DNA from: Draconibacterium sp.
GTDB lineage: Bacteria > Bacteroidota > Bacteroidia > Bacteroidales > Prolixibacteraceae
Reading direction: 5' to 3'
DNA length: 62,937 nt
Assembly: GCA_011620585.1 (NCBI GenBank)
Contig: WOYV01000038.1
Coordinates: 1-62,937 of the forward strand
A program made the position numbers and the translations under genes. Numbering within the stretch: position 1 is the first letter of the stretch; each line of letters starts with the position of its first letter. The notes beneath the pieces were generated by a model. That model was given only the letters and a program-made list of their open reading frames with translations, was not told the origin of the DNA and did no database searches. Below, piece by piece: positions 17,246-62,829 of this stretch.

Positions 17246-17331
17246 GCCCAGGTGATGAAATTGGTAGACATGCAAGGTTGAGGGCCTTGTGGGAGTATAA
17301 TCCCGTGCAGGTTCGAGTCCCGTCCTGGGCA
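17246..17331 (+). tRNA. tRNA-Leu (GAG)
   Basis: An 86-nt class II tRNA. The acceptor arms GCCCAGG and CCTGGGC pair perfectly. The anticodon stem CAAGG/CCTTG encloses TTGAGGG, giving anticodon GAG for CUC/CUU codons. A long variable arm (GGGA/TCCC) is present, as expected for leucine, and the T arm contains GTTCGAGTC. CCA is not encoded. The gene lies at the border between core genes and the glycan-utilisation region. Confidence 0.95.
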
Positions 17332-32500: not shown

Positions 32501-32998
32501 AATATCAGTAACAGTACCTTGTGTTGTACCTTTTACAAACACTGTTACTCCCGGAATTGGCTGGCCCTCGGTACCAGTAACCTGCCCGGTTACAGACCGT
32601 TGTTGAAGTACGGTTAGATAATCGTTGCTAACTTCGCCCTTATACAGTGCGACCTGTCTGCCAACAATTTTATACTCAACACCAGTGCCTTCAAATATTT
32701 CATTCAGAATTATTTCGATGTTTATATTCTGAAAATCTACCGACACCTTTCGATCAGCATCGATTACATCCTCAGAGTAGAAAAAGTGAAATTCACTTTG
32801 CTCCTCAATCTGAGTTAATACATTTTTTAGGCTCGCATCTCTCATTTCGAGAGATAGCTTGGTTACCTGCGAATAGCTTTCGTTAGCCATCACCGAAAAA
32901 ACACTCAAGCATAAAAAAAACAAACTTAGTTTCATAAGCATTAAAAGTTTTAAGAAGAAAGTCCCCGGAAGGATATCCTTCAATCTCTTTTTTTTCAT
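29588..32998 (-). CDS. SusC/RagA TonB-dependent transporter with STN domain (PUL1)
   Basis: Outer-membrane importer of oligosaccharides, energised by TonB. The 1136 residues comprise an export signal near 20-40; an STN domain (about 45-120: LSLEMRDASLKNVLTQIEEQ); a CarboxypepD_reg-like beta domain (about 135-210: VTGTEGQPIPGVTVFVKGTT); the plug (about 215-345, with VVVIGYGTMQKKNLIGSV and LKDAGSAAIYGSRSSNGVILVTTKKG); and a barrel ending in GFGLELEF. The STN domain indicates signalling to the FecR anti-sigma factor encoded just upstream. Its ATG coincides with the plus-strand -7 box of a predicted antisense RNA. Confidence 0.95.
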   Translation of the reverse strand: MKKKRLKDILPGTFFLKLLMLMKLSLFFLCLSVFSVMANESYSQVTKLSLEMRDASLKNVLTQIEEQSEFHFFYSEDVIDADRKVSVDFQNINIEIILNEIFEGTGVEYKIVGRQVALYKGEVSNDYLTVLQQRSVTGQVTGTEGQPIPGVTVFVKGTTQGTVTDIDGNYQLNDVDPDAIFVFSFVGMLTQEIPVGGQNNISVVLKEDAIGIEEVVVIGYGTMQKKNLIGSVDQINSNLIEDRPVGNTVQALQGASANLIIQQRSMNPNDNSMNINIRGVSTMNNNNPLIVIDGMITEMGSLNNLNPADIENVSVLKDAGSAAIYGSRSSNGVILVTTKKGAKSGKPVVRVNTMTGFQDPEVLFQPVKGYENALLKNQALLNVGSSPQYTPAEIRDFQQHGDGQWFLDGILRTALQQNYNASISGGNETSTYMVSAGYYNQESNFVGDFGIERYNFRTNLVSEYGKLKISALMAYNRTMQTAPNASTGFLIVDGSRIPPYYNYRMKADNGKYLINDVLSQFNPLGQLEAGGFQKKDDDNFLGSLNLELDLAKGLKAKGMVGLDLGANHRFIRGLEVPFYSSETAEKPNSYANDTRNTEDYNEKRYILNTQFLLEYNRTFKEDHNVSGLIGVSNESYTRQANEIKMKYTDRDLGLPESETEIDPTSYNTPAQTQERSIYSVFGRAGYNYKDKYYGEFSFRYDGSSKFSKDYRWGFFPSFTGGWRLSEEAFMENYRNNIGDLKLRGSYGVLGNQNVDDYSYFTTYTVYNNSYGFNNQAVSGTGFDFGNSILQWEQSANFNIGADATFLDNRLSVSFDYFNKLTSQILLTPVVPSVFGGAVAKENAGEMRNRGWELTINYHAKTGAVDHNIRLNLADAQNEVVDFGGNEQINSSDQMRKLIREGEALGSYFGYKTDGYFGSYQEIENSALPIGATVEPGDVKYVDTNKDGVIDDKDRQVLGNAFPRYTFGFNYDLTWKGFDLGILVQGVGKRDMFLRGELVEPFHANYSYVIYQHQLDFWTPVNPEAEWPRLSAPGSASNQNNWGKASDIYIFNAAYIRLKNIQLGYTLPKELTSKVGVQKLRLSVNAQNLFTLSKVSFIDPESTEFGSNMGGAGGTGANSGRNYPTLKYYGFGLELEF

Positions 32999-33005
32999 AG
33001 ATTTG
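32998..33005 (+). promoter_or_regulatory. Candidate plus-strand -7 box antisense to the PUL1 susC leader
   Basis: TAGATTTG is an exact TAnnTTTG match on the plus strand, beginning at the A of the susC ATG on the other strand. No TTTG is found at the -33 position. The match may arise by chance from an A-rich leader, but PUL2 has the same arrangement. Confidence 0.4.
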
Positions 33006-33009
33006 ACTA

Positions 33010-33079
33010 TTAAGATTAATAATTGTAATTATTATTTATCGGAGGTGGGGAAGTTGGTGGCTTCTCCGCCTCTTTTTAT
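33010..33079 (+). ncRNA. Predicted antisense RNA covering the PUL1 susC leader
   Basis: Inferred from a plus-strand -7 box at 32998-33005 and a plus-strand intrinsic terminator at 33041-33081, giving a transcript of about 70 nt that is fully complementary to the susC 5' untranslated region. The architecture (anti-sigma, susC, antisense RNA between them) is that of DonS in Bacteroides fragilis, a cis-encoded repressor of a PUL. Ends are estimates; there is no expression evidence. Confidence 0.45.
33017..33034. repeat. Inverted repeat in the PUL1 susC leader
   Basis: TAATAATT and AATTATTA form perfect 8-bp arms around GT. A two-base spacer is too short for an RNA loop, so a protein-binding site is possible; an AT-rich coincidence is also possible. 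Confidence 0.4.
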
Positions 33080-33081: not shown

Positions 33082-33123
33082 GATTTATTGGTAAAGGTTT
33101 TTTTTTGAAACTTATCTCATAGG

Positions 33124-34258: not shown

Positions 34259-34837
34259 ATGAAAGAATCGAACTTGGTAAACAGACTTATTAATAATGAG
34301 AGATCAGCTATTAATGAGCTATATGCCGAATATAGCCCTAAACTATACCGATTCGCTTACGGGTATTTAAAATCCGAAGCTGAAGCATTAGATATCGTTC
34401 AGGAAGTATTTATTAATATATGGAATTACCGTAGTAAATTAAATAAAAATTCTAACCTCGATTCGCTTTTATTTACCGTCGCCAAAAACACCATTATTAC
34501 TGTTTTTCGAAAAAAGGTAAACGAAAAAGGTTTTCTGGAGTATTTAAAACACAAGGTAATCACAAATAGCATCGATACTGAATCGCAGTTCAACTACAGT
34601 CAGTTTTCTAACGAAATAAAAAATCTGGTAGGACAGCTTCCTCCCCAACGAAGAAAGATATACCAACTAAGCAAAGAAAAGGGATTAACAAATAAAGCAA
34701 TTGCGACAGAACTTGGCATTTCGGTTAAAACAGTCGAAGATCATTTAAGCAAAGCAACAAAATACCTGAGAAAACATTTAAGCGAGTATGGATTTTTGGC
34801 GCTGTTATTCTTTGAAATGTTTGTACGGTTAAAATAG
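34259..34837 (+). CDS. ECF sigma factor (PUL1 regulator)
   Basis: A 192-residue ECF sigma factor with region 2 (about 12-85: AINELYAEYSPKLYRFAYGYLKSEAEALDIVQEVFINIW) and region 4 (about 125-175: QLPPQRRKIYQLSKEKGLTNKAIATELGISVKTVEDHLSKA). It is expected to direct RNA polymerase to the PUL1 susC promoter when freed by FecR. The C-terminus ends in a hydrophobic stretch (FLALLFFEMFVRL), seen also in the PUL2 sigma. It is the only plus-strand gene between 18 kb and the end of the window. Confidence 0.92.
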   Translation: MKESNLVNRLINNERSAINELYAEYSPKLYRFAYGYLKSEAEALDIVQEVFINIWNYRSKLNKNSNLDSLLFTVAKNTIITVFRKKVNEKGFLEYLKHKVITNSIDTESQFNYSQFSNEIKNLVGQLPPQRRKIYQLSKEKGLTNKAIATELGISVKTVEDHLSKATKYLRKHLSEYGFLALLFFEMFVRLK

Positions 34838-55635: not shown

Positions 55636-57525
55636 TTATTGATTAGGGTTCTTAACAATTTGCGGATTGTTATTTCTGATCTCGTCGTTAATGAACGAAT
55701 AGTAGTTTCCTAAACGGAATCGGTCGGCTCCTGTAACCTGCCCCGGAAGTATTTGTTTGAAGATGTATTTACCATTGTTTTCACTTCCCGGTTCGTAATA
55801 TTTGTATGGCCATAATCCGAATACGCGCGTACTCACTTCGTCGGCTTTCCAAGGCTTGTCAGTCAACGGAACTTTCTCGCCATTCCAAACGATGTGGGCC
55901 AAACGCCAGCGTTTCATATCCCACAATTCATGCCCTTCAAATGCCAACTCCACTTTGCGTTCGTGAACAATACGATCGAAAGTAACGTCGCTTGCCTTTA
56001 GATCAGTTGTAAACCCGGCCCTTTGGCGAACCACATTAAGATAGCCGGCTGCTTTGCCTGCCTGATCCAGTTCGAAAGCGGCTTCAGCAGCATTCAGGTA
56101 AACTTCGGCCAAACGGTAGCGAACCCACCATCTGTCACTTTTTAAACCTCTCTGTCCACTACCGGTCTGTGGATCCATGTGCTTGCGTACGTAAAACCCA
56201 CTTTGCGCACTAAACTCACGGCCATCAATTGGCCCGTCGAAACCTACCACCTGTACAGGAGTATCTGTTCCGGGAAGTTCTTTACGCTGGCCAAACTCAT
56301 CGCCTGTAATAATGCTTCCGTCGGCCAGTTGGTAACCAGCCCAAATATCAAGGTCTTTGCCTTTAAACTTACTTCCGGGAAGAATGACAGTTCCTGCCAA
56401 ACGGGCATCGCGACCTGCAAACATTTCTAAAGGATTGTCAAAATAAAGATAATCTCCTCCACCATCCATGGTTTCGAAAGTTGCAAAAGTATTGTCCAGC
56501 AGTTCAAAGGATTGCACCAGGTTTAGCGACGGGTTGGTACGGCCACCTTCCAAATCTTCGGCACCCGACCATGGCTGATTCCAAAGCGTCCAGAGATTGG
56601 CCCTTCCGTCCCAGCGTTCGCTTTGTACGTAGTCGCGTACAAAAATCACCTCGGTATTGTTTCCTTTGTCAACAAACAAACTTGCGAAATTGTCAGAAAG
56701 GTCTTCTTTTTTGTTGTACAGTGCATAATCACCATTTTTAATTAATTGCTCTGCAGCACTCAACGCCTTTGTGTAATAGCTTTCGGCCATGCTTGCCGGA
56801 ATACCGACTTCGCCGCCCGGTAAAAAAACAGCCGGAGTGGTTGCGCCATATTTCGCAATTGAAGCAGCATATAAAGCTACCCTCGATTGCATGGCCAAAA
56901 CCAGCGCCTGGGTTGCACGGCTTTTAACGTTCACATCGTTAGGCAAATCATTTTTAATCTCTTCTAACTCGCTCAAAACGAAATCGTAAATATCGGATTC
57001 TTTCGCACGGGGACGTTGCAAATAACTTGCATCTCCGCTAAAATCGTATTCCAACGGCTCGGTAATTAAAGGTACGCCCCCCATACGTTTTACCAGTTCG
57101 AAATAAGCATTGGCACGTAAAAAGCGGCCTTCGGCAATAAAACGTGATTTAACCGCCGGATCCAGGTTATTGGTCAAATCAGATTGCGCTTTTTGAATAA
57201 AGAGGTTGATTTCGCGGATATAACCGTAGTTCCAAAGGCTCCATTCGCCATAACCCCAGTCGTTATTTTTATGGCGCCAGTAGTCGCCAAAATTCGAGGC
57301 AAAAGCTTCATCAAAATCGGCAAAATTCCACCAACCTTCCAAAGATTGGTACTCAGGAATCCTGAAATACAGGTCGCTTACCACAGACAGAATCAAAGCC
57401 TCGTCCGTCCATACTTGTTCATCCAGCAGGATATTGGTGGGTTCCCTGTCCAGAAAATCATCGTCGTTACAGCTCCAGTTAAATGTTAAAAGCAGAAGCA
57501 GTATATATACTATCTTTTTATTCAT
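55636..57525 (-). CDS. SusD/RagB family lipoprotein (PUL2)
   Basis: A 629-residue SusD homologue: lipoprotein signal (FNWSC, Cys19), N-terminal FLDREPTNILLDEQVWTD, TPR helices (GRFLRANAYFELVKRMGGVPLITEPL) and the C-terminal block VHERKVELAFEGHELWDMKRW. It caps the SusC barrel and selects the glycan. It is about 80 residues longer than the PUL1 SusD. It follows susC by 20 bp. Confidence 0.95.
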   Translation of the reverse strand: MNKKIVYILLLLLTFNWSCNDDDFLDREPTNILLDEQVWTDEALILSVVSDLYFRIPEYQSLEGWWNFADFDEAFASNFGDYWRHKNNDWGYGEWSLWNYGYIREINLFIQKAQSDLTNNLDPAVKSRFIAEGRFLRANAYFELVKRMGGVPLITEPLEYDFSGDASYLQRPRAKESDIYDFVLSELEEIKNDLPNDVNVKSRATQALVLAMQSRVALYAASIAKYGATTPAVFLPGGEVGIPASMAESYYTKALSAAEQLIKNGDYALYNKKEDLSDNFASLFVDKGNNTEVIFVRDYVQSERWDGRANLWTLWNQPWSGAEDLEGGRTNPSLNLVQSFELLDNTFATFETMDGGGDYLYFDNPLEMFAGRDARLAGTVILPGSKFKGKDLDIWAGYQLADGSIITGDEFGQRKELPGTDTPVQVVGFDGPIDGREFSAQSGFYVRKHMDPQTGSGQRGLKSDRWWVRYRLAEVYLNAAEAAFELDQAGKAAGYLNVVRQRAGFTTDLKASDVTFDRIVHERKVELAFEGHELWDMKRWRLAHIVWNGEKVPLTDKPWKADEVSTRVFGLWPYKYYEPGSENNGKYIFKQILPGQVTGADRFRLGNYYSFINDEIRNNNPQIVKNPNQ

Positions 57526-57545: not shown

Positions 57546-60500
57546 TTAGAATGAAACATTTACTCCAATATTCACCATGCTGTTTTGCGGATACTGTAAA
57601 CCGTTCTCTTCCATAATTTCGGGTTCTACACCCAGATCTTTCAAATTATCGAGAGAGAACAGGTTGTAGGTATTCAGATACAAACGGCAGTTCTGTGCCC
57701 CAATTTTTGTTACCCACTCTTTAGGCAGGGTATAACCCAGTTCAAGGGTTCTTAAGCGAATGTAGTGGGCGTTGGTCAACCAGAAAGTTGACTGCTTGTT
57801 GTAATTACTGTGCCAGCCGGTGTTAAAACGTAGTGCAGGGTATTTCCCCGGGATCCATTCGCTATTCAGATCAAACGGATCTTCGCGGTGCCAACGATCG
57901 TCGTAAAATTGTTTTAGCAGGTTACCAGTATTCTGGTAAGGCCAGCGCATTTCCCAGTTCTGGTTGTAGGAGTAAGCCGAACCACCTGAGAAATCAGCTT
58001 TCAGGTCGAATCCTTTGTACTGGGCAGCAAGGTTAATACCAAAGTTGATGATCGGGTTACGATCTCTCGGGTATCCGATCGGACGTTGATCATATCCGTT
58101 GATAACGCCGTCACCGTTAATGTCTTTATAAATAATGTCGCCGGGCAACATATCGCGGTTACCATTTCCGTCGTTGTTAACCGGCCAGCTGTTAATCTGT
58201 TCGAATGACTCGAACTGACCTTCAATTTCATAGCCCCAGAAAACGCCTGTCCAGCGATCTTCCGATGAGTTGCGGTAATGGTCCCAGGAGTTTCCAAAAC
58301 GAGGTTTATACGATTGGAGGAATTTATTACGTGCGTACGAAATATTACCGCCTACGGTATATTTGAAGTCGCCTGCCGAGCCATCATAAGCAATCGATGC
58401 TTCTGCCCCCATGGTGGCATCGCTGTTTACGTTTTCATCGGGCAAGGTGTATCCAAGTTCGTTTGGTACCAGGATATCGTATTTGCGTCCGCGCAGTCCG
58501 TCGCGTTTACGATAGAAGTAATCGACAGCACCACTTAATTTTCCGTTGTATAACGACCAGTCGGCACCAATATCGGTTATGCGGCTGGTATACCACGAAA
58601 TAGATTTGATTGGCACACCACGGTCGCGCGCACCGGTAATAATCTGTCCATCCATTACCACGGTTTGAGAAGCGTAGTTGTAACCTGTCAGGTAATCGAA
58701 ATTACCAATGCCTACGTTGTCGTCTCCAAGTTCACCGTACGATGCACGCAGTTTCAAATTGAAGGTACTTTCACCAAGCAGCGCTTTAGAGAAATTCTCT
58801 TCGGTAATACGCCATCCTATTGATCCTGACGGGAAAAACCCCCAGCGTTCGCTCGATACAAATTTCCACGAACCATCGTAACGTCCAGAAAATTCGACGT
58901 AATATTTATTGGCAAAGTTGTAGTTTACCCTTCCGATGTAACCAATTCTGGCACTTTCGTCATCCGAGTCGTTGTAGGTATCCATATCAGGGAACTGGAT
59001 TAATGGAAGTGCATTGGTTTTTGGCACAGCATGTACCCATACATCCAGATCACGTCTTTCAATACGCTCGTTTGCAAAAGTTGCTGCCACTGTATGCTCT
59101 CCAAATGTATTTCCATAGTCAACCTGGCCAATCAATACATTTTCCATTACTTTGTGTGTACCACGTTCACGCCATGGGTTTTGCATAGAAAATGTCACTT
59201 TGTACTCATCAGTTTCAGGAAAGTAAGAATAAGCTTCATAAGTATATTCGTGCCCATTCATTAAACGGTCGGCGATGTAATAAGAATAGGTTCCTTTTAC
59301 CGACAATCCTTCGATTGGCAGATCGTATTCGCCATTAAAATTCAGTTGAAGCACTCTCCAGTCTTCCGTCCAGTAACCCGAGTTTTCTTTGGTTAACAAG
59401 CCCCAGTTCTCAGCCATGTGGCCGATGTTGTTAATGAATTCCGGGTTATCGTTAGCATAAGGCCGTTCTGTAGGACGGTTGCGAAACAGTGCAAAACGTG
59501 GCGCCCAATAATCATCTCCTCCTGGAACACCTGGATTATCACGGGTTTCGATACGGCCATTAATAGAAGCGCCCACTTTTAGGCGGTCCGTAATTTGTGC
59601 GTCAATATTAGATTGAATATTTGTGCGTTCAAAAGTAAACTCCCGTCCCAAAACTGAAGTCTGGTCCAAACGGGTGAGCGAGAAATAGTAGTTAATTTTA
59701 TCGGATCCCCCCGATGTACTTATGTTAATGGAGTTCTGTGGTGCATTTGGCTGTATTATAAAATCGTACCAGTCGAAACTTTGGTATCCTGCTTCTGTTC
59801 CTGCTTTCCATTTATCCAGTTCTGCCGGGGTAATATTCGTACTGCCGTCAAGGTTCATTTCAGCGTAAGCTTTTCCCAGCATCCAGTCGTAAGCATCCAC
59901 AGTTTCAGGAAAACGCGACCAGTTTTGCCATCCCATGTAGGCATTTACATTGATGGTATTTTGGGTTCCTTTTTTACCACGCTTGGTGGTAACCACAACA
60001 ACACCGTTTGCTGCACGTACACCATAAATGGCTGCCGATGCATCTTTCAGAACACTGATGCTTTCGATATCATTTGGCGACAAGTTATTGAATTGTCCAG
60101 CATCTTTCTGTATCCCATCTATTACATAAAGCGGGTCACCCATATTCCTGATCTGAATAGTTGCCGAAGCCCCCGGACGCCCATCGGGCATACGGAAAGA
60201 CACACCTGCCAGCTTACCTGCCAAAGTAGAACTAACCGTTGAAGCGTGTACTCTTTCCAAATCTTCGGAAGTTACAGCCGAAATTGCACCTGTTAACGAT
60301 TCCTTTTTCTGGGTACCGTAACCAATAGCCACTACTTCTTCAATGTCAATAGAGGAGGGTCGCATAACAACATCGATGGTGCGGTTGTCACCTACGGTAA
60401 CTTCCTGTGTTTCCATTCCAATGAAAGAGAACAACATCACATCGCCGGGTTCAACTCCGCTGAGCGAGAATTTCCCGTCTACGTCGGTAACCGTACCGTT

Positions 60501-60983
60501 ATTGGTTCCTTTCACCAAAACCGTAACACCGGGCAACAACTCACCCTGACTGCTTTTTACTGTTCCGCTTACCAAATTTTGCGGCAAAGGATTATCAACG
60601 GATTCTGTATTTTCTTTTCCTCTGTTCTGAACAATAATGTGTCGGTCGAGCAAAACATACGAGTATTCGGTACCGACAAATGCCTCGGTAAGAATGTCGT
60701 TGATGTTCGACTTTTCCTTGTGTATTGTAACTTCCCTTGAAAGATCGATTTCGTTGCTGTCGTAAAAAAACCTGAATTCACTCGAATTCTCAATTTCTTC
60801 GAAAAGTTCGGATAGTTTGGCATTCTTCATGTCCAATGTCAACTTGATAGATTGCGCATAGCTGGAGGCCGAAACCTGCACTATGGCTACCAAGAGAAAC
60901 AAACATGTAATCTTCATAGTTCTAATCAGTTTTTTGAAATGAGCCATATAATCTACCTCATTGCAAATGTTAGTTTTTTTCAT
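57546..60983 (-). CDS. SusC/RagA TonB-dependent transporter with STN domain (PUL2)
   Basis: A 1145-residue outer-membrane glycan importer: export signal near 23-44, STN domain (about 45-120: LTLDMKNAKLSELFEEIENS), CarboxypepD_reg-like domain (about 135-215: VKSSQGELLPGVTVLVKGTN), plug with EVVAIGYGTQKKESLTGAI and LKDASAAIYGVRAANGVVVVTTKRG, and barrel ending VNIGVNVSF. The STN domain fits signalling through the FecR protein encoded upstream. The chosen ATG at 60983 lies on the predicted antisense RNA promoter; an in-frame ATG twelve codons downstream is a possible alternative start. Confidence 0.95.
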   Translation of the reverse strand: MKKTNICNEVDYMAHFKKLIRTMKITCLFLLVAIVQVSASSYAQSIKLTLDMKNAKLSELFEEIENSSEFRFFYDSNEIDLSREVTIHKEKSNINDILTEAFVGTEYSYVLLDRHIIVQNRGKENTESVDNPLPQNLVSGTVKSSQGELLPGVTVLVKGTNNGTVTDVDGKFSLSGVEPGDVMLFSFIGMETQEVTVGDNRTIDVVMRPSSIDIEEVVAIGYGTQKKESLTGAISAVTSEDLERVHASTVSSTLAGKLAGVSFRMPDGRPGASATIQIRNMGDPLYVIDGIQKDAGQFNNLSPNDIESISVLKDASAAIYGVRAANGVVVVTTKRGKKGTQNTINVNAYMGWQNWSRFPETVDAYDWMLGKAYAEMNLDGSTNITPAELDKWKAGTEAGYQSFDWYDFIIQPNAPQNSINISTSGGSDKINYYFSLTRLDQTSVLGREFTFERTNIQSNIDAQITDRLKVGASINGRIETRDNPGVPGGDDYWAPRFALFRNRPTERPYANDNPEFINNIGHMAENWGLLTKENSGYWTEDWRVLQLNFNGEYDLPIEGLSVKGTYSYYIADRLMNGHEYTYEAYSYFPETDEYKVTFSMQNPWRERGTHKVMENVLIGQVDYGNTFGEHTVAATFANERIERRDLDVWVHAVPKTNALPLIQFPDMDTYNDSDDESARIGYIGRVNYNFANKYYVEFSGRYDGSWKFVSSERWGFFPSGSIGWRITEENFSKALLGESTFNLKLRASYGELGDDNVGIGNFDYLTGYNYASQTVVMDGQIITGARDRGVPIKSISWYTSRITDIGADWSLYNGKLSGAVDYFYRKRDGLRGRKYDILVPNELGYTLPDENVNSDATMGAEASIAYDGSAGDFKYTVGGNISYARNKFLQSYKPRFGNSWDHYRNSSEDRWTGVFWGYEIEGQFESFEQINSWPVNNDGNGNRDMLPGDIIYKDINGDGVINGYDQRPIGYPRDRNPIINFGINLAAQYKGFDLKADFSGGSAYSYNQNWEMRWPYQNTGNLLKQFYDDRWHREDPFDLNSEWIPGKYPALRFNTGWHSNYNKQSTFWLTNAHYIRLRTLELGYTLPKEWVTKIGAQNCRLYLNTYNLFSLDNLKDLGVEPEIMEENGLQYPQNSMVNIGVNVSF

Positions 60984-60990
60984 ACATTTA
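60983..60990 (+). promoter_or_regulatory. Candidate plus-strand -7 box antisense to the PUL2 susC leader
   Basis: TACATTTA on the plus strand matches TAnnTTTG in all but the last base and begins at the A of the susC ATG on the other strand, exactly as in PUL1. An ATTG lies 19 nt upstream (60960-60963), a partial -33 element. Confidence 0.4.
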
Positions 60991-61000
60991 ACGTGTTAAA
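60987..61000. repeat. Inverted repeat in the PUL2 susC leader
   Basis: TTTAAC and GTTAAA flank GT: 6-bp perfect arms with the same two-base GT spacer seen in the PUL1 repeat. It lies immediately upstream of the susC ATG. A protein-binding site is possible but unproven. Confidence 0.4.
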
Positions 61001-61012
61001 TTTCGATAATTG

Positions 61013-61024
61013 AGCCAATTGGCT
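61013..61024. repeat. 12-bp palindrome in the PUL2 susC leader
   Basis: AGCCAATTGGCT is a perfect 12-bp palindrome about 30-41 bp upstream of the susC ATG. It could be an operator or the first half of a structured leader. Confidence 0.4.
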
Positions 61025-61073
61025 TATTTATTGATTCTCAAAAAGATGGAAACCCAAAAGTGTTTCTTTACAG

Positions 61074-61106
61074 GCGGGAAGTGTTGGCAGACATTTCCCG
61101 TTTTTT
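61074..61106 (+). terminator. Plus-strand intrinsic terminator between fecR and susC (PUL2)
   Basis: CGGGAAGTGT (61075-61084), loop TGGCAG and ACATTTCCCG (61091-61100) pair over ten bases with one wobble that exists only in plus-strand RNA. TTTTTT follows on plus; on minus the hairpin is followed by CCTGTAA, so it cannot serve fecR. Confidence 0.78.
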
Positions 61107-61155
61107 AGTTTCAGTTCGGATTTAGTTCATAGGCAAATAGTTTTTAAAAGTTAGA

Positions 61156-62139
61156 TTAGTTCATAATAAATATTTTTCCTTTTTCGTATTTGTAGTTGAA
61201 TGGTTTTCCTGACGCGTTTTTGAAGGCTTCCATAATGGTATAGATATTATCATCTATACTTAGTGTCCCGGTGAAGTTTCGTGTTTTAAACCCTGTATCC
61301 ATAAAAATAATTTCTACGTTGTAAATTCGTTCAATTTTTCTGGACAGCGATTCAAATGTTTCATTTTTGAAACGATAAGTCCCATTTAGCCAGTAATCGT
61401 AAAAACCATCCGGGATAATGGACTCGTAGACCTTCCCGGATGTTTTATCATAAACTAAACTATGCGATGGCTTAACCAAGAATGATTTGTATTCGTTTTT
61501 GGTATTGCCTGTATAAACATCGAATTGAATTTCCCCTGAAATCAGTTCAGTTTTAACCAGATCATCTTCGGGATAAGCCACAACTGCAAATTTAGTCCCT
61601 AACACCTTGATCTTTTCCTGCCCCACTGAAACAATAAACGGATGTTCGGTATCGTGTGCAACTTCAAAAAAACCTTCACCCTCGAGCCGAACATTTCTGG
61701 TATCCCCACTGAAGTTTTCGGGGTAAATAAGCTTTGAACCATTGCTAATCCAGACCAAACTTCCATCGGGAAGTGTTACAGAAGTCCTGTTTCCGCGCGG
61801 AACCACAATCTCATTCATTGCCAATTCAGCCCCCAGTTTGTTCTGGCTCAAGAAATATCCTCCGGCAAGTGCAAACACAATTATTGCTGCATATTTCAAA
61901 ATATTGACCACAGGATTTCTCCAAAAATTGTGATTTAACCTTTTCTGTACTTTTCTGAATCCCGACTCAATACTGGCAGCATCCATTTGGGCGCCAGTTT
62001 GCAACATTGCCCAAAGGTTTTTCTGACGGATGTATTCCTCTGCATTATCAGCAGAAGCGTTCACAAAGTCAAAAAGTTCTTTTGAATTGCTTATTGTTTC
62101 CCCTTGTGATATATTTTCTGTTAATCTCTCTATGTCCAT
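61156..62139 (-). CDS. FecR-type anti-sigma factor (PUL2)
   Basis: A 327-residue inner-membrane anti-sigma factor: cytoplasmic N-terminal region (about 1-80), one transmembrane helix near 87-103 (YAAIIVFALAGGYFL), periplasmic FecR domain (about 110-225: LPDGSLVWISNGSKLIYPE) and C-terminal DUF4974 domain (about 245-325: FESLSRKIERIYNVEIIFMD). It is expected to control the ECF sigma encoded 99 bp upstream in response to the SusC STN domain. Unlike in PUL1, sigma and anti-sigma genes are in the same direction. Confidence 0.92.
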   Translation of the reverse strand: MDIERLTENISQGETISNSKELFDFVNASADNAEEYIRQKNLWAMLQTGAQMDAASIESGFRKVQKRLNHNFWRNPVVNILKYAAIIVFALAGGYFLSQNKLGAELAMNEIVVPRGNRTSVTLPDGSLVWISNGSKLIYPENFSGDTRNVRLEGEGFFEVAHDTEHPFIVSVGQEKIKVLGTKFAVVAYPEDDLVKTELISGEIQFDVYTGNTKNEYKSFLVKPSHSLVYDKTSGKVYESIIPDGFYDYWLNGTYRFKNETFESLSRKIERIYNVEIIFMDTGFKTRNFTGTLSIDDNIYTIMEAFKNASGKPFNYKYEKGKIFIMN

Positions 62140-62238: not shown

Positions 62239-62829
62239 TTAACCGTACACCATCAAAAGAAAAGCTACTAACGGTAAGTAATCTTTTAATGCCAGCCTGA
62301 ATATTTTTAAAGCTTTTGTAATTTGGGCTTCAACAGCTTTAACTGAAATCGAAAGGTTATCCGCGATTTCCTGATTTTTTTTACCTTCGAGTCGGCTAAA
62401 CACAAAAATTTCACTACATCGTTCTGGAAGTTCTAAAAGCGTTTTATCAATAATTTTTTCAATTTCACGAAAGCTGATAACGGTGGTATCAATTTGCTTT
62501 AAAGCCATTTCGTGCAATTGGTTTTGCTTCTGTAAAATTAGATTTTGATTATATTTCTTTTTTACCTTTTCGTGGCGAAGAAACATTAAACAATTATTCT
62601 TTACGTTGGTATACAGGTAGCTTTGTAGCTGTGCTTCGCTAAGGAACTTCGGTTTTTTCTCCCACATGGAAACAAAGGCATCCTGCACAAGACTTTTTGC
62701 ATCGGCTTCAGGTACATATACTTTTGCGAAATAAACCAAACGCGGATAGTATAGATTGAAAACAACCTCAAAAGCAGCATCCTGTTTCTTATTCAAAAGT
62801 TTAAGTAAGTTAATCGAAATTGAGCTCAT
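62239..62829 (-). CDS. ECF sigma factor (PUL2 regulator)
   Basis: A 196-residue ECF sigma factor with region 2 (about 18-90: AFEVVFNLYYPRLVYFAKVYVPEADAKSLVQDAFVSMWEKKP) and region 4 (about 130-180: LLELPERCSEIFVFSRLEGKKNQEIADNLSISVKAVEAQITKAL). It should drive the PUL2 susC promoter. The C-terminus is hydrophobic (YLPLVAFLLMVYG). The 108 bp upstream of it to the window end contain no clear gene or full promoter match. Confidence 0.92.
   Translation of the reverse strand: MSSISINLLKLLNKKQDAAFEVVFNLYYPRLVYFAKVYVPEADAKSLVQDAFVSMWEKKPKFLSEAQLQSYLYTNVKNNCLMFLRHEKVKKKYNQNLILQKQNQLHEMALKQIDTTVISFREIEKIIDKTLLELPERCSEIFVFSRLEGKKNQEIADNLSISVKAVEAQITKALKIFRLALKDYLPLVAFLLMVYG

Follow-up and report, generated by a model that had tools for sequence, protein, structure and literature searches.

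This analysis focused on a question raised by the gap between fecR and susC in a PUL of Draconibacterium sp. (PUL2): does the strand opposite susC carry a gene for a small antisense RNA there? The window, i.e. the whole stretch of DNA analysed (62,937 nt), has PUL2 at its end, on the minus strand, as an ECF sigma factor gene (62239-62829; TIGR02985), a fecR-type anti-sigma factor gene (61156-62139; PF04773 above the cut-off, with a weak NCBIfam match), a susC homologue (57546-60983; TIGR04056, 822.9 bits) and susD (55636-57525). The fecR-susC gap is 172 nt long. Nine further genes downstream of PUL2 were scanned and included five GH43 (one weak), one GH127 and a gene for a GtaA-type protein; the substrate may thus be an arabinose-containing glycan. 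In a second locus of the window, PUL1, the ECF sigma factor gene (34259-34837, plus strand) is divergent from fecR, while in PUL2 the two lie on the same strand. The answer reached below is that the PUL2 gap probably contains the gene for a small cis-antisense RNA of the DonS type, predicted to lie over the susC leader.

The fecR loci compared were taken from the same genome and at least 20 related genomes (at least 12 of the same genus), via loci and 60 stretches, among the matches listed. From 97 fecR loci parsed, 88 were followed by a SusC-like gene and 82 of these had a gap of at least 40 nt, again among the matches listed; six gaps below 40 nt, L064 (no stop) and L058 were left out. Draconibacterium supplied 79 of the 82 gaps, and other families of the order the remaining three (L050, L056, L079). 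For L060 and L087, the start was shifted to an in-frame MEKK start for the box count only, not for the terminator count.

Terminator and promoter-like box opposite the susC leader

The PUL2 terminator (61075-61106, plus strand) has a 10-bp stem, CGGGAAGTGT (61075-61084) paired with ACATTTCCCG (61091-61100) and including one G-T pair, the tip TGTTGGCAGACA, and six T at 61101-61106; the terminator scan lists it too. The minus-strand side of the stem has no T-run, and the plus-strand-only terminator described in the sequence-only reading can be read directly from the letters. That reading had also proposed comparing terminator frequency in fecR-susC gaps with that in other gaps. All seven testable gaps of the same genome carried an antisense-strand terminator, as did 76 of the 82 pooled gaps (among the matches listed), compared with 47 of 410 dinucleotide shuffles; sense-strand calls were made in 16 of the 82 (among the matches listed) and 3 of the 410. 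Background gaps, i.e. co-directional gaps of 60-300 nt within 400 kb of the same genome (n = 90), gave 10 antisense and 32 sense terminators.

The hairpin is conserved as a structure. In the PUL2 ortholog alignment, 6 of 9 stem pairs showed compensatory changes on both sides, the alignment having nine rows, two of them from one genome, with changes mostly in the more distant rows. Among paralogs, hairpins were selected for pairing (38 of 76 passed a threshold of at least 5 of 8 pairs); in the 36 unique ones 261 of 288 cells were paired, where shuffled arms gave a mean of 194. Of 69 unique hairpins 13 had the tip TGTTGG, which none of 29 background terminators had. The loops were also inspected for YUNR, the U-turn loop motif, as possible pairing sites, but 9 of 69 unique antisense loops carried it compared with 6.5 expected from shuffled loops, and the idea was unsupported. 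At the gathering score, Rfam matched only a tRNA (17246-17331) in the window; the fecR-susC gap was without a family, as were seven further loci, and one other Rfam scan gave two matches, both below their gathering scores.

A hairpin is necessarily present on both strands, and the element could instead act in the susC mRNA leader, with the CAAAnnTATG sequence as a translation-initiation context and the antisense features as their mirror image. We consider this improbable. According to PMC5635687 (citing Pudlo 2015), repression of mucin PULs is mediated by an intergenic stretch of the PUL transcripts that acts in cis, and T was slightly raised on the sense side just past unselected hairpins (0.43 vs 0.33-0.36). 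However, the U-tract was far stronger on the antisense side: sense A content was 0.89 in the 4 nt adjoining the stem and 0.41-0.51 farther out for stems chosen for their U-tracts, and still 0.68 vs 0.41-0.44 for unselected hairpins (62 of the 82 gaps, among the matches listed). A search of the post-hairpin region by k-mers and dyads for a sense ECF promoter motif gave nothing convincing.

The other end of the antisense RNA gene would be defined by a -7 box on the susC start codon. The Bacteroidota promoter consensus is given as TAnnTTTG (PMC7366714, PMC9723704), and PUL2 matches it at five of six positions with TACATTTA (60983-60990, plus strand), which overlaps the start codon (CAT, 60981-60983). 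The PUL1 counterpart (32998-33077, plus strand) comprises a box with all six positions, TAGATTTG (32998-33005), a terminator (33041-33077) and a predicted RNA of ~68 nt from 33010. Both boxes start at the same base relative to the susC ATG, as had been noted from the letters. Among the matches listed, a box of at least 5/6 ended exactly on the first-called susC ATG in 70 of the 82 gaps, and a 6/6 box in 48 of the 82; the corresponding counts at 84 control starts were 4 and 0. The earlier argument that a repeated arrangement makes coincidence less likely is thus borne out by the terminator and box counts alike.

The bases before the ATG show the same pattern. The sense profile of all 82 unselected leaders (among the matches listed) was C70% A80% A94% A89% n n T93%, and the 69 unique leaders selected because their box reached 5/6 or better gave C81% A91% A100% A100% n n T100%. 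The conserved positions coincide with TAnnTTTG, and in the unselected profile the nn are constrained least. Other starts in the same loci prefer A at -3 and are without the CAAAnnT pattern, which speaks against a general initiation context. The sequence-only reading had cautioned that a leader ending in CAAAnnT yields the box automatically; this is answered in part, because such leaders are rare at other starts and because the nn show the weakest constraint. The -33 TTTG box was not seen, as CAA was not enriched at the expected sense offset and spacing in the leaders. The box in F. psychrophilum was mapped at -12 to -5 (PMC9723704), and in F. johnsoniae, too, a -33 box was reportedly not found (PMC7366714). 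The predicted antisense start is placed at a G (60995, plus strand), at sense -12, since the box was taken to occupy the position mapped in F. psychrophilum; sense -12 is a C in 72% of the 69 chosen leaders and in 63% of all 82 (among the matches listed). Separately, the first 25 nt of the PUL2 susC, ATGAAAAAAACTAACATTTGCAATG (60959-60983), are identical in DNA in orthologs L131-L134, at a protein identity of 80-81%, as if under extra constraint.

The predicted RNA and its proposed action

With these ends, the PUL2 antisense RNA would run from 60995 to 61106 on the plus strand (112 nt, three hairpins, extent inferred). The fold of this segment had an MFE of -37.2 kcal/mol, compared with -21.2 for shuffles (z -4.83). 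Predicted lengths (n = 76, among the matches listed) had a median of 87 nt, an interquartile range of 76-101 and a range of 61-158, with 26 of the 76 below 80 nt and four of at least 150 nt. If the gap holds an RNA gene with two ends, box and terminator should occur together, and such an association was found: among the matches listed, the box was present in 71 of 76 gaps with a terminator and in 2 of 6 without (best in-frame ATG within 66 nt), or 68 of 76 and 2 of 6 at the first-called start.

This association also bears on a simpler idea, that the terminator merely insulates fecR from stray antisense transcription out of susC, with no dedicated promoter and no regulatory RNA. Terminators so oriented do that job whatever the promoter, and pervasive antisense transcription has been described in flavobacteria (PMC9723704); yet an insulator would not call for a box at one fixed base of the ATG in 70 of 82 gaps (among the matches listed), at full consensus at none of the 84 control starts, nor for its association with the terminator, nor for predicted lengths of which the middle half spans 76-101 nt, and we regard it as unlikely.

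A DonS-type antisense RNA agrees better with these data. The PUL2 candidate lies on the strand opposite the susC homologue, at its 5' end, and has an intrinsic terminator as a defined 3' end. Its -7 box is of the sigma-ABfr type (5/6, with no -33 box), and at 112 nt, by its inferred extent, it falls within the 78-128 nt of the DonS class, while the ~68 nt of PUL1 are shorter. That the PUL2 box is itself short of consensus was counted against this reading, as were the missing -33 box, the sense-strand terminator calls in 16 of the 82 gaps (among the matches listed) and the boxes and terminators seen at some susC genes without fecR (below).

In the proposed mechanism, a housekeeping-sigma promoter (TAnnTTTG) on the susC start codon would fire away from susC. 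The ~112-nt RNA would start ~12 nt upstream of the ATG, cross the susC leader backwards and stop at the terminator before fecR; if, as seems likely, the susC mRNA begins upstream of the hairpin, the RNA would by its anatomy be fully complementary to the mRNA leader. While FecR holds the ECF sigma factor, the susC-susD operon would likely be kept low, either by pairing of the RNA with the leader, such that initiation is blocked or the leader exposed to RNase, or by convergent transcription. Once ECF-driven sense transcription is strong, it would pass over the antisense promoter and turn it off. Repression by PUL antisense RNAs is not universal, because the 2024 B. theta atlas reports positively correlated pairs (PMC10994844).

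Distribution of the layout and its link to fecR

The layout mostly tracks fecR. A set of 47 susC genes without fecR (12 from the same genome and 35 from relatives, among the matches listed) had a 6/6 box in one case, a further point against a translation-initiation context, and a box of at least 5/6 at the first ATG in 12; an antisense-strand terminator was found in 12 of the 47 (among the matches listed), six of them at -8.1 to -8.9 kcal/mol and four at -12 kcal/mol or stronger (L003, L202, L207, L213). This comparison also included 11 susC genes with fecR; the box and the terminator were each present in 10 of them, and six of the 11 are loci of the same genome already among the 82. Of 59 genes in this comparison 58 were scored (L018 had no ATG), and 35 of its 40 stretches from relatives were picked for short reading frames. 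Strong antisense-strand terminators, partly with a box, were seen without a detected fecR at L003 (same genome, ~1248-1280), L202, L207 and L282; their neighbours were a gene without a Pfam match (L003), a LacI-type regulator (L202), a transposase (L207) and a hybrid two-component regulator (L282).

Named orthologs of the PUL2 SusC gave a similar picture, 75 of 80 loci being scored. Of the 38 with fecR upstream, 30 had the terminator and 29 the box, these 38 not being independent (several Dyadobacter and Chitinophaga species); of the 37 without fecR, 10 had the terminator and 5 the box. The layout is kept in the PUL2 ortholog of D. orientale FH5T. Genera positive for the layout include Sunxiuqinia, Dyadobacter, Chitinophaga, Parachryseolinea and Pseudochryseolinea. 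In Flectobacillus the layout is present with a hybrid two-component regulator upstream, and fecR is therefore not strictly required.

Beyond these, 17 of 26 gaps in one further family of the order had the terminator and 14 of 26 had the box at the first-called start, and an order sample had both in 6 of 25 new loci (L322, L327, L328, L329, L334, L342), with the downstream gene in either sample not checked as SusC. A phylum sample of 30 fecR loci (15 from the same class and 15 from others) had box and terminator in three (L179, L188, L193), all of the same class, and L182 had both if a later start is taken; in the 15 loci from other classes the two were never found together. The spread of the layout is wide, and at 3 of 30 in the phylum sample it is not universal. 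The suggestion that antisense control is a routine part of ECF/FecR-regulated PULs in this organism is supported as regards the layout, with the terminator in all seven testable gaps of the genome, and was too narrow in naming one organism; the word control stands for an inferred function.

The recurrence across families and the covarying stem both argue against an RNA that is made and has no regulatory role. That possibility, to which we give little weight, has a precedent in the caution of the B. theta authors that some antisense RNAs may stem from random promoters (PMC7366714). A regulatory antisense RNA is the reading retained here.

The mini-ORF and comparison with known systems

A further feature lies between fecR and the terminator, on the sense side. 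PUL2 has ATG AAC TAA (61122-61130, minus strand) with a GCCTATG box at 61128-61134, and PUL1 has ATG AGA TAA (33112-33120, minus strand). The sequence-only reading had called the PUL1 and PUL2 gaps unrelated in sequence; they are not wholly so, since they share a GTTGG hairpin tip as well as CCTATG-NNN-TAA. An ATG followed by a stop after 0-2 codons was present upstream of the hairpin in 47 of 57 gaps, compared with a mean of 14 and a maximum of 21 in 200 rounds of shuffling, and among 85 ATGs such stops fell in frames 0, 1 and 2 in 60, 10 and 9 cases. Control regions gave 19 of 90 background gaps (frames 23, 29 and 29 of 144 ATGs), 15 of 76 post-hairpin regions and 5 of 57 on the reverse strand. 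Leaders of susC without fecR gave 15 of 35 (frames 17, 8 and 12 of 47), and are therefore not free of the mini-ORF.

The GCCTATG-like boxes show the same frame preference. A frame-0 stop within 0-6 codons followed 36 of 36 boxes in the 82 gaps (among the matches listed; other frames 13 and 12) and 24 of 24 in 42 loci of other genera (other frames 7 and 7), or 59 of 59 distinct boxes, L050 being in both sets. For 196 such boxes anywhere in 400 kb, stops within 0-2 codons numbered 32, 26 and 16 by frame. The TGCCTATG context recurred in 22 of 57 gaps compared with 0.02 expected, and a GCCTATG-like mini-ORF is also found downstream of fecR in other families (L351-L380). The stops are mixed (TAA 37, TGA 9, TAG 1), which points to translation of the mini-ORF and away from a DNA motif. 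That the mini-ORF simply extends FecR was rejected, as the frame relative to fecR varies (judged by eye). A GGAGG-like Shine-Dalgarno sequence precedes some mini-ORFs (L054, L063, L086), with a loose match in 6 of 47; a Shine-Dalgarno of this kind is unusual for Bacteroidota.

As a conserved feature of the sense side, the mini-ORF lends something to the idea of an element acting in the susC mRNA. It can also be joined to the antisense RNA: many Bacteroidota fecR-susC gaps might, as a tentative proposal that we hold to be possible and short of probable, carry a two-part post-transcriptional switch made of the antisense RNA and a conserved, translated mini-ORF beyond its terminator. In such a switch, it would depend on ribosomes at the mini-ORF whether the susC leader is shielded or is exposed to pairing with the antisense RNA and to decay. 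Within the literature searched, which mostly excluded subscription journals, no paper was found that treats this layout in Draconibacterium, and none that treats the mini-ORF, which appears new. If so, it provides a directly testable lead to mechanism. Almost all fecR-linked susC genes sampled in Draconibacterium carry the layout, which also occurs in Sunxiuqinia, Dyadobacter and Chitinophaga; this suggests an old, standard regulatory part, and offers a sequence rule for finding PUL antisense RNAs without RNA-seq.

DonS and the PUL-associated cis-antisense RNAs of Bacteroides were reportedly the subject of work by Cao et al. in 2016. According to Ryan et al. 2020 (PMC7366714), DonS is one of a family of antisense RNAs of 78-128 nt divergent from susC, and a sigma-ABfr promoter is assigned to 52% of B. 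theta cis-antisense RNAs; DonS represses its PUL (PMC7366714, PMC10994844), 32 PUL asRNAs are annotated in B. theta (Ryan et al. 2024, PMC10994844), and a 2025 paper calls the mechanism of DonS unknown (PMC11697453). Bacteroides proper was sought here through its SusD family, and 0 of 393 genomes passed the cut-off, so the comparison with DonS is by description. As far as the published accounts available describe it, the candidates resemble the DonS family in lying opposite to and divergent from a susC homologue, in length range and in the sigma-ABfr-type box. They differ in being fecR-linked, in occurring in Draconibacterium and other Bacteroidota rather than Bacteroides, and in being known from sequence; neither a promoter at a fixed position on the ATG nor a mini-ORF was found in those accounts.

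For the mini-ORF, the nearest likeness comes from another phylum, in the axe-txe minigene. This two-codon minigene acts in cis in the leader of the axe-txe toxin-antitoxin genes (PMC8708949), and by that account it shares with the mini-ORF a start-stop-like form within a leader, but it belongs to another gene, while in PUL gaps the TGCCTATG context recurs. The candidate RNA itself is best regarded as a further case of the known kind of PUL antisense RNA, with a strong genomic case and a presumed function like that of DonS.
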